64,000 bases of DNA, taken from the NCBI GenBank assembly GCA_028695965.1, contig JAQVHZ010000005.1, forward strand, positions 1 through 64,000, given 5' to 3'. Positions 32,089-36,185 of the stretch are shown piece by piece (position 1 is the stretch's first letter; every line of letters starts with the position of its first letter). Below the pieces are notes generated by a model. The model saw nothing but the letters and a program-made list of their open reading frames with translations. It was not told where the DNA came from and searched no databases. The stretch is from Thermoguttaceae bacterium (GTDB lineage: Bacteria; Planctomycetota; Planctomycetia; Pirellulales; Thermoguttaceae). The position numbers and the translations under genes are program-made.

Positions 32089-34233
32089 CTAGCGCGGGTA
32101 GGTCAGAGCGCGTTCTGCGCGTTCGATAACGTCGTTGATCGAAAAGGCGGTACTGCCGGCGTCGAGCGTTTCGTTCGTGCTAATCCACCCGTCGACTTTT
32201 TTCTGCGCGGCGAGCACGGCGCTGTGTTTTCTGCCGCCAAAGTACTGGCCGATTTCTGCGAGCGTGAAGCGCGTGTGTTTGCGCGCGAGCCACATGGCGA
32301 CAGCGCGAGGGTCGGCGCATCGTTTTGCGCGGGACGACGATTTCAGCGCGTTCGACTCGAGCCCGAAGATTTCTAGGACGACGCGTTCGACGTCCTCTAA
32401 TTTGACGTTCCGAACATTTGCGGCGGCAAGGTCGGCGAGCGCGTCGTGAGCGAGTTCCAAGGTGATCGGCATACCGGTCGTGAGTTGGGCCGCTAAGAGC
32501 CGATTGAGGGCTCCGGAGAGTTGACGCGCATGGGTGGCGAAGCGCGAGACCACGTATCGACAGACGTCTTCTCCGACGATCATGTTCCTTTCGAGCGCCA
32601 TTTGCCGCAATATTCTCGCAAGCGTTTCTCTTTCGGGGTTGTCAATTTTGCAGACGACGCCGCTTTCGATACGGGTCGTCAGTTCCCCTCTCAGCTTCGA
32701 CAGCTCGTTCAAGGGCCGATTCGCAGAAAAGACCATCTGAACGCGTCTTGCGCGTAAGAAGTCGACGACGTTCAGCAGCTCCGTCTGGGTCGACGTCTTT
32801 CCTTCGAGGAAATGGACGTCGTCGAGCGCGAATAGGGAGATGTTTCTGAATCGTTCTCGAAACGCGCCCCCTCCGCGAAGGCTCTGAATGAACGCGGACG
32901 TGAACTGTTCGGACGTCATATAAAGGGGCGGCTTCACATTGGGCAGGCGCGTGTATGCGTCGCAGATCCCTTCGAGGAGATGCGTTTTGCCGACGCTGGT
33001 CGGACCGCAAATGAAGATCGGGCTCATCGCTCCGGGCTCGGTGATAGCGACGTCGGCGACGCGGCGCGCCAATCTGTTCGAGAAGCCTTCAATGAACGTG
33101 TTCAACGACGCGAATCTTACGGCGCGGTCTTCGGCTCGGACTCGGGCGGGTTCTTTCGGACGCGTTACGACGTTGAACCCCCTTTCGTCGCGCAAGACGC
33201 CTTCGTCGTCGTCCGCGGCGACAATTGAAAGGAGGTCGCGCTTCGGCTCGGCCGGTTTGCGCGTCGTCGAGCCTTTAGGTCGTCCGCGGCGCTTGGGTTC
33301 AGGGGGCTGGTATTCCGGCTCTTGCGTTGTCGGCGCAACGTTGAATTGGAACGCCGAGGGACGCGGCGGCGCCGTTTCTTTTTGTTCGTTGACGCCGAAA
33401 TCGCCGACCGCCCACGCGACGCGCTCGGATTCGGACAGATCGACGCCGCCCGGCGCAGCGTAAAGGGACTCAGGCGCGCTGAGGCTATGACGCCGCTGCG
33501 CCGTTTGATAAACGTCGAAAAGGGAAGGCGGCGCGGCGTCCGAAGGGGTGGAAATTGCAGTTGGATAAAGAGGGGGCTGCTGGACGTTCGTCGGTTCCGG
33601 TTCGGGTTTTTTTCGAGGTCTTCCGCGTTTGCGCTTCGGGGGTTCCTGGACGGGCTCGGCATAAGGAACGCTGGACCACTCCGGAACGCGCCGCTCGGCG
33701 TTTAGAACGTCCGCGGTTGTCGAGGGGAGATTGAAGAGCGCGTCTTGCGGCGGCTCGGCGTCGACGGTGATAGCGCTCTGGACAGGGCGTTCCGTCGTCG
33801 CAGGCGGATTTTTCCGGGGTCTTCCGCGCTTGCGCTTTGGGGGCTCGGGAGTTGAAACGGCTTGAACTAGAAGCGGAGAATCGTACGGCGCGTTGCTGAG
33901 GGCAGGCGAGGAAACCTGCGCGACAGGTTGACGCGTCAGCGCAGAAGGGGTGGAAATGGACGCAGAAGAACCTACGGACTCTTTGAGCGAGACTTTTACT
34001 TTAATCTCTGCGGCAAAGAGCTCGACGCCAATCTTTTCGAAAGTATGAACGTATCCGGATCCGACAATCCAGTCGGCGATAAAAGGCTCGTCGACTTCGA
34101 CGGTCAACACATCGCCTTCGAAGAGGAACCTAACGCCGGCGGCAAACCATAATTGGTATCTATTGTCGCCAATATCCTTGCGTAACGCCTCTCGAAAAAG
34201 GTTTTCAAGATCCGCTTGTTGTCTTCTGACCAT
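32089..34233 (-). CDS. dnaA: chromosomal replication initiator DnaA with long linker containing AT-hook-like motifs
   Basis: Domain I at N-terminus; Walker A GPTSVGKTH; Walker B LFALDDVHFLEGK; C-terminal HTH GGRKHSAVLAAQKKV; linker KRKRGRPRKNP, KRKRGRPRKKP, KRRGRPKGS. Confidence 0.9.
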   Translation of the reverse strand: MVRRQQADLENLFREALRKDIGDNRYQLWFAAGVRFLFEGDVLTVEVDEPFIADWIVGSGYVHTFEKIGVELFAAEIKVKVSLKESVGSSASISTPSALTRQPVAQVSSPALSNAPYDSPLLVQAVSTPEPPKRKRGRPRKNPPATTERPVQSAITVDAEPPQDALFNLPSTTADVLNAERRVPEWSSVPYAEPVQEPPKRKRGRPRKKPEPEPTNVQQPPLYPTAISTPSDAAPPSLFDVYQTAQRRHSLSAPESLYAAPGGVDLSESERVAWAVGDFGVNEQKETAPPRPSAFQFNVAPTTQEPEYQPPEPKRRGRPKGSTTRKPAEPKRDLLSIVAADDDEGVLRDERGFNVVTRPKEPARVRAEDRAVRFASLNTFIEGFSNRLARRVADVAITEPGAMSPIFICGPTSVGKTHLLEGICDAYTRLPNVKPPLYMTSEQFTSAFIQSLRGGGAFRERFRNISLFALDDVHFLEGKTSTQTELLNVVDFLRARRVQMVFSANRPLNELSKLRGELTTRIESGVVCKIDNPERETLARILRQMALERNMIVGEDVCRYVVSRFATHARQLSGALNRLLAAQLTTGMPITLELAHDALADLAAANVRNVKLEDVERVVLEIFGLESNALKSSSRAKRCADPRAVAMWLARKHTRFTLAEIGQYFGGRKHSAVLAAQKKVDGWISTNETLDAGSTAFSINDVIERAERALTYPR

Positions 34234-34781
34234 TGAGTAACGTCAATCCTAGGGGAGGAATGATTTCTGGCGCGTTGTGGATTAGTTGTTAATAAGACGT
34301 CGTTAACTTTGTGCCAAAAGCTCAAAGCGCAGACGGATAATCGACAAACGCCATGCGAGCGTTTGGATGGAAAGGGAGCCGAAAGATTGCGCCGAAGCCG
34401 CGTATTCTCCTATTTTTGACGCTTTTGCGCGTTGTTCCGATTTTGCTAAATTTTGCGAGGCAAAAAGATAGCGCGTCGAGATCGCGGCTCTTTCCATTTT
34501 TTCGCTCAACGAACCTCATTCTACAATTCCATGTTCGTTTGTCAAATAAATCTTTTGGTCGGTCTATCCTTTTTGTATACATTTTTAACCGGGATAACCG
34601 TAATTACCCGAGCGAAAAAGCAACTTTCTATGAAAAAATTTTATTTTTGTACTAAAGTTTTACAAATGAGGCACAAGTTTTCAACCTGTTTTAAGCCCTT
34701 AAAAAAGCCGGCAATCGGGCAAAAAGCGTCTCTTCTTTGCCGATTCCCGGCGTTGAACTTTGCTTGGCGTCTAGCGCTGCA

Positions 34782-36185
34782 TCAGGGGAGCGCTCTCGGA
34801 CAAAGGTAATATCCCCTTGGAACGGAGACTGTATTGACGACTTTGTCGAGAGGATCGTCTTTAACTGTTTTAGGCATAAGTTCGTCAAAAAGGCCTTTTT
34901 CTTCTTCGTAACGAACGACATGGACGTTCGAGTCAGAGAGACCGGTCATTTCGATCGCGGCGGCAACAGCGTCGTCTAGGAACCCGATTTCATCGATGAG
35001 GTACAGTTCCTTTGCTTCTTTTGCGGAGTAGATTCGGCCGTCCGCTAATTGACGCAGTTCCGCTTCGCGCTGCGCTTTGAGAACGAGCTGGTCTTCGTGC
35101 GCGTCTTCTTCTGCGCCTTCCTCTTGAACGAGCGTTTCTCCTTCAGGAGCGTCTTGTTCGGCGTGCGCCGTTTCATCAGAAGCAGGTTCGGCAGTTTGTT
35201 CTTCGTCGGGCGCGTCAGCCTCTTGAGAGGGTTCTTCCTGGACCGGTTCTTCGGAGTCGGCTGTTTTGTCAATAGTTTTGACTCTGACGCCGGCGAGTTT
35301 TTCGTGTGTTGGTCTGGTTATTTCAACGTCTTCTTCGGCGCGATAATATGCGCGTCCGCTCATAATGACGTCGAGGAATTGCTCGTAGCTTTCGTCGACG
35401 CTCTTTTGCCAGATCGCCGTTTCTTCGGGCGTGGGTTCTTTCATAAAATCGCCCATGCCTTTCATTGCGCCGCTCGTAATCGCGTTGGAACGGACGCCGA
35501 TTTTTTTGCAGAGTTCCGCCGCGTTATACATCGGAATGATAACGCCGATGGAGCCGGTCATGGTCGAGCGTTCGGCGAAGATTTTGTCGGCGGCGGTGGA
35601 GACGTAATAGCCGCCGCTCGCAGCAAGGTCGCCCATGCTGACGACGACAGGTATTTCAAGGTCCGCCTTGAGCTTTTTCAGGAGATGCAGATAATAATCG
35701 CTTCCGGCGATCGTGCCGCCCGGGGAGTTGACGCGCAAGACGACCGCGCGAACGCGATTATCCTCTCGAATAGCGTTAATCGCTTTGGGGATGAACCCCG
35801 TTTCGTCCGTTTGAATGATTCCTTCGATCGGCAGAATCACGATTTTTCCGGCGCTGCGTTCGTTTCCTTTAATTGTTGTTTCGGTAACCTCGTAATTTGC
35901 GGAACTGGGCTGGCTCAGCGCTGTTGCTAAGACGCCAATGGCTCCGAAAAAGAGCGAGAAGGAAAGGACGCAGAAAAGCGTAACGCCAACGATCGTCGCG
36001 GCGAGGTCCTTCAGGACGATTTGCCAGAATCTTGGCGGCTGGGGACGGAATGGAGGTCGAAAAGGCGGTTGATTTGGTTTGTTATGAGGAATATTAGGCC
36101 CGTGAGGGGGGGTAGGGGCGTTGGGACTGTTGGGAACGTTTGGATTTTCGGAATTGTTGGGGTCGTTGGGATAGTTCATTGCCAT
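34782..36185 (-). CDS. sppA: signal peptide peptidase SppA-like S49 serine protease with proline-rich N-terminus and acidic insertion
   Basis: VVLRVNSPGGTIAGSDYYLHLLKK, MGDLAASGGYYVSTAADKIFAERSTMTGSIGVI, ADGRIYSAKEAKELYLIDEIG. Confidence 0.85.
   Translation of the reverse strand: MAMNYPNDPNNSENPNVPNSPNAPTPPHGPNIPHNKPNQPPFRPPFRPQPPRFWQIVLKDLAATIVGVTLFCVLSFSLFFGAIGVLATALSQPSSANYEVTETTIKGNERSAGKIVILPIEGIIQTDETGFIPKAINAIREDNRVRAVVLRVNSPGGTIAGSDYYLHLLKKLKADLEIPVVVSMGDLAASGGYYVSTAADKIFAERSTMTGSIGVIIPMYNAAELCKKIGVRSNAITSGAMKGMGDFMKEPTPEETAIWQKSVDESYEQFLDVIMSGRAYYRAEEDVEITRPTHEKLAGVRVKTIDKTADSEEPVQEEPSQEADAPDEEQTAEPASDETAHAEQDAPEGETLVQEEGAEEDAHEDQLVLKAQREAELRQLADGRIYSAKEAKELYLIDEIGFLDDAVAAAIEMTGLSDSNVHVVRYEEEKGLFDELMPKTVKDDPLDKVVNTVSVPRGYYLCPRALP

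Follow-up and report, generated by a model that had tools for sequence, protein, structure and literature searches.

AT-hook motifs in the long domain II linker of a DnaA orthologue, conserved within one genus of Thermoguttaceae

What would an array of AT-hooks do in the linker of a bacterial DnaA? The question is raised by dnaA1, a gene on the minus strand of the window (the whole 64,000-nucleotide stretch of DNA that was analysed; all of its features described below lie on this strand), which occupies positions 32089 to 34233 and encodes a 714-residue protein composed of domain I, a long linker bearing AT-hook motifs, the AAA+ domain III and domain IV. The linker corresponds to domain II of DnaA, which is regarded as variable and unstructured and about whose possible functional motifs there is little information (2017 review of DnaA N-terminal domains, PMC5448010). 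Conserved AT-hooks would give this domain, which in E. coli accepts an inserted GFP, a concrete, testable function.

Judged by its domain content, as read from the sequence and a structural model, DnaA1 belongs to DnaA. Bac_DnaA (PF00308) matches residues 377-528 well over the Pfam cut-off (E = 4.7e-30, 105 bits) and Bac_DnaA_C (PF08299) matches residues 613-680, also over its cut-off (E = 8.3e-20, 71 bits); DnaA_N (PF11638) gives a weak match under the cut-off at residues 13-56 (E = 5.5e-4). NCBIfam TIGR00362 is by far the top family (E = 1e-88), with 298 bits against an equivalog cut-off of 343.9, and the solved structure nearest in sequence is a DnaA (PDB 8btg; E = 1e-56, best stretch residues 376-690). 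AlphaFold2, run with an alignment of 26 orthologues, predicts confident folds for domain I and for domains III-IV. Domain I spans residues 2-83 (33985 to 34230), with predicted elements from H2 to E83 and a block pLDDT of about 70-94; the AAA+ domain III and its lid (32434 to 33105) carry a Walker A motif GPTSVGKT, a Walker B motif LFALDD and the conserved arginines R521 and R570; and in the helix-turn-helix domain IV (32164 to 32397) GGRKHSAVLAA replaces GGRDHTTVxHA, so that the GRDHTT motif is absent and the protein reads GGRKHSA at this place. All three domains are shared with the bacterial DnaA of 8btg, from which DnaA1 differs in its hooked linker of ~283 residues and in having lysine for the Asp of GRDHTT. 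The loss of GRDHTT is variation within DnaA orthologues and does not exclude DnaA1 from DnaA.

The linker extends from about residue 88 to residue 370 (~283 residues; 33124 to 33972) and is predicted to be mostly disordered, with two short helices and AlphaFold2 pLDDT values under 50 over most of its length. Length by itself is unexceptional, since domain II of Streptomyces DnaA is also very long (~250 residues; PMC5448010). In S. coelicolor, however, the extra stretch is described as predominantly acidic and AT-hooks have not been described in it (PMC5448010), whereas the DnaA1 linker contains three copies of an RGRP core with basic flanks. These are AT-hook 1, KRKRGRPRKNP (residues 133-143; 33805 to 33837), AT-hook 2, KRKRGRPRKKP (residues 200-210; 33604 to 33636), and AT-hook 3, KRRGRPKGSTTRK (residues 314-326; 33256 to 33294, with the core, residues 314-324, at 33294-33262). 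The original prediction of three AT-hook motifs in the extended DnaA linker was essentially correct as to their sequences, and its coordinates lay within a few bases of these. Core and flanks agree with those of structurally characterised AT-hooks, and RGRPKGS, found in hook 3, is also given as the core of HMGA1's second AT-hook (PMC11354804). Against the Pfam AT_hook model (PF02178), the best of the three scores 15.6 bits, with a cut-off of 17.4; the model matches DnaA in 20 of 20 genomes of the genus and exceeds the curated cut-off in six.

A linker rich in P, A, S and R invites the reading that the motifs are functionless low-complexity sequence that arose by chance. A strict hook motif was defined as [KR]GRP[KR], and among 200,000 shuffles of the linker composition it occurred at least once in 528, twice in one and three times in none, a test that is conservative because the shuffled composition contains the hooks themselves. 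At the DNA level, a loose hook pattern is found genome-wide as often as expected by chance (75 matches versus 77 in a reversed control), which counts in favour of the chance reading, and the case therefore rests on the clustering of the hooks and on their conservation. That hooks are simply abundant throughout the genome was rejected: Pfam AT_hook, taken up to an E-value of 10, gives four sites in three frames, which include DnaA and one WYL-type regulator. The latter, recognised by eye as a helix-turn-helix and WYL-type regulator-like protein (G000:C3:25945-26028), carries a tandem pair of AT-hooks, KRGRGRPRKYPK...KRPRGRPRK, in the tail at its C-terminus, and hooked regulators of this type are present in four or more species of the genus.

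The named members of the genus (Thermoguttaceae, Planctomycetota) come from rumen and omasum metagenomes. All 20 of its genomes examined, the source genome included, encode a long DnaA with hooks: 11 have three strict hooks, eight have two, and a single copy, cut by a contig end, has one. Absence of the motifs from close relatives, which would have spoken against the original prediction, was looked for and is not what these genomes contain. Hook 1 is kept in every congener whose contig extends that far, and the RGRPRK of hook 2 in 20 of 20. Pairwise amino-acid identity within the genus is 83%, 90% and 62% for hooks 1, 2 and 3, respectively, and 29.5% for the linker outside the hooks, which is laden with indels; the values for domain I, the AAA+ domain and domain IV are 41%, 68% and 78%. 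In a sliding scan, hooks 1 and 2 are the most highly conserved 9-mers of the linker, hook 2 being the top one, and are followed by hook 3, LSESERVAW and VLRDERGFNVV. Hook 3 has decayed to RGRKPKT-like sequences or worse in one sub-clade. At identical hook residues the codons differ in 54-59% of pairs, 55-59% for hooks 1 and 2, slightly above the 43-47% seen elsewhere; because the amino acids are kept while the codons differ, it is the peptide that is conserved and not the DNA, and a DNA-level repeat or codon artefact was rejected as the origin of the hooks. These comparisons indicate that the hooks are under purifying selection at the protein level. Their retention in all 20 congeners despite synonymous turnover and massive divergence of the linker, taken with the shuffle null, led us to reject a chance origin, and we consider functionless low-complexity sequence scarcely credible.

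Two conserved islands of the linker are not hooks: LSESERVAWAVGDF (residues 266-279; 33397 to 33438), which is helical in the AlphaFold2 model and stands out in the conservation scan, and VLRDERGFNVV (residues 346-356; 33166 to 33198), which lies just N-terminal of the AAA+ domain. Both are possible partner-binding motifs. Conserved non-hook islands (LSESERVAW and VLRDxxGFNVV) suggest that the linker is more than a DNA tether, and some AT-hooks are known to bind RNA (PMC11354804), so that the basic islands might serve RNA, melted single-stranded DNA or a protein partner, with the match to GRP being incidental. We judge this quite improbable: a generic basic patch would be expected to drift between K and R and to lose GRP, yet hooks 1 and 2 keep the whole RGRP core together with both basic flanks, and hook 3 shares RGRPKGS with HMGA1.

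How widely are hooks distributed among DnaA proteins? The strict motif was found N-terminal to the AAA+ core in none of 120 other Planctomycetota DnaAs (75 from other genera of the family, and 45 from elsewhere in the order, class and phylum); GRGRPC in one family member was not counted, as no basic residue follows GRP. Hooks as a trait of all Planctomycetota DnaAs were rejected on this count. Scanning DnaAs across PVC bacteria for GRP cores had been proposed, and the hooks are present in all 20 members of the genus but are not PVC-typical, being confined in the DnaAs sampled to this one genus. In a tree of DnaA sequences the members of the genus group together in a single clade (SH-aLRT 100), and one change, placed at the genus root, accounts for the trait, so that on this tree the hooks were gained once at the base of the genus. 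No other hooked DnaA was present among the Pfam AT_hook matches in 294 Planctomycetota genomes (E <= 0.12; matches compared by coordinates with the listed places of DnaA), and none among those in 300 genomes of a Clostridiales phylum (E <= 0.08), although both scans miss weaker hooks, and a hook of DnaA1 itself barely passed the first (0.117). Hooked DnaA is unique in this sample, its uniqueness beyond the sample being unproven. A full-text search of an open-access collection, which leaves out most subscription papers, gave no report of AT-hooks in DnaA, the papers returned being judged by title or abstract. The hook array adds a new variation to DnaA.

The AT-hooked initiator otherwise best known is Orc4, the origin-binding protein of fission yeast. 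In Schizosaccharomyces pombe it is through the AT-hooks of Orc4 that ORC binds at origins (PMC11354804, PMC7574548), and several of them are located N-terminal to the AAA+ core of the initiator, as in DnaA1 (PMC11354804, PMC7574548, PMC6742236). Orc4 is a subunit of the eukaryotic ORC and its DNA binding is proven, whereas DNA binding by the hooks of DnaA1 is predicted; because the gain of hooks in DnaA is a genus-level event, we infer that the two hook regions are convergent. That AT-hooks can function in a bacterium is established by the HMGA-like region of Myxococcus xanthus CarD (PMC4374960), an RNA-polymerase-associated transcription regulator whose hooks, unlike those of DnaA1, are in a C-terminal tail. 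The DnaA1 linker is predicted to be mostly disordered, as in HMGA and CarD.

By analogy with these proteins, we lean with modest confidence towards the hooks being an added, low-specificity minor-groove tether that would steer or hold DnaA on A/T tracts. On this reading, the disordered linker of a DnaA orthologue gained its AT-hook array in a single event at the root of the genus. Each hook would place its RGRP core in the minor groove at a short A/T tract, and a flexible linker of ~283 residues would let several hooks reach A/T-rich DNA near sites bound by domain IV. In this way the hooks would raise the avidity of DnaA for A/T-rich DNA, for example the origin unwinding region or the dnaA promoter, as auxiliary contacts that help to steer or hold it there. 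The analysis shows the identity and position of the motifs, the predicted disorder around them, their purifying selection and their single gain; DNA binding by the hooks is inferred, and the origin as its target more weakly so. Should the hooks guide DnaA to A/T tracts, the same DNA-binding peptide has been added to initiators independently in bacteria and in fission yeast, which would bear on how strictly initiators require sequence-specific origin sites.

Several observations count against the proposed steering of DnaA by its hooks. No sign change in GC skew was found around dnaA in its own 92-kb contig, nor in most of a 329-kb contig of a congener, and because the sign is constant the origin is not evidently beside dnaA; the decay of hook 3 in one sub-clade and the scores of DnaA1's own hooks under the Pfam cut-off weigh in the same direction. 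The region upstream of dnaA is A/T-rich (41% versus 55% GC), but this is unspecific to hooked species and is no evidence for hook action, because unhooked relatives are A/T-rich there too. The main rival is that the hooks bind A/T tracts chromosome-wide and not at the origin, tethering or titrating DnaA on the nucleoid and so setting the concentration of free DnaA, or serving DnaA in its role as a transcription regulator. It agrees with the skew and with the low sequence specificity of AT-hooks, those of EBNA1 being known tethers (PMC11354804), and the hooks of CarD probably mediate its nucleoid localisation (PMC4374960). The present evidence, however, fits tether and origin models alike, and the strict conservation of two hooks suggests a role in an essential process without locating it. 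We hold chromosome-wide binding to be a tentative possibility, bearing in mind that the confidence given to the rivals overlaps in part with that given to the preferred explanation.

A different kind of rival comes from domain IV and from a second DnaA-like gene. The Asp of GRDHTT is D433 in the established numbering of E. coli DnaA; the DnaA1 residue aligned with it is mostly S across the order and K or R in the genus, and the suggestion that the domain IV change might be lineage-typical is borne out to this extent. To judge from the sequences, its replacement may have altered box specificity. The second gene, dnaA2 (G000:C126:14340-15200), encodes a 463-residue protein in which domain I is not detectable; the paralogue occurs order-wide, again with no detectable domain I, and in 21 genomes from the genus, family and order it mostly keeps (G)RDHTT or RDHST. 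Within the genus, its Walker B motif is IEN/LEN or IED, not DD. The two proteins therefore show reverse patterns, DnaA1 having intact ATPase motifs and an altered reader and DnaA2 a canonical reader and a changed ATPase motif.

It could be that in this group DnaA1 no longer serves as the main initiator: DnaA2 would mark the origin, and DnaA1 would have specialised as a regulator or a helicase loader, its hooks replacing box specificity. The canonical motif and the undetected domain I of DnaA2 would fit such a division of labour, as would the order-wide loss of the Asp from DnaA1. GC skew was sampled coarsely, at 20 points each, in two complete genomes of the order, and in one of them (G030:C1) the minimum lies closer to dnaA2 (0 Mb) than to dnaA1 (3.13 Mb), which also counts against steering of DnaA1 to the origin by its hooks; the sampled skew of the other (G029) is uninformative as to the origin and gives this alternative no second instance. 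Its weak points are the Walker B motif of the genus DnaA2 proteins and the retention by DnaA1 of Walker A, Walker B and the conserved arginines, and we consider it unlikely. A version in which the reading of A/T tracts by the hooks partly replaces the reading of DnaA boxes, with DnaA2 keeping the canonical reader, would amount to a convergent, Orc4-like selection of origins; it strikes us as doubtful, if a little less so.

Two further features lie upstream of dnaA1. Candidate tandem near-DnaA boxes, TTATTAACA and TAATCCACA, are spaced 11 bp apart at 34276 to 34295, some 50-60 bp ahead of where dnaA starts, and can be aligned by eye in some close congeners; their placement raises the possibility of autoregulation. 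Beyond them, at 34782-36185, is a gene for what appears by eye to be an SppA-like signal peptide peptidase with a long internal acidic insertion rich in E, D and Q.
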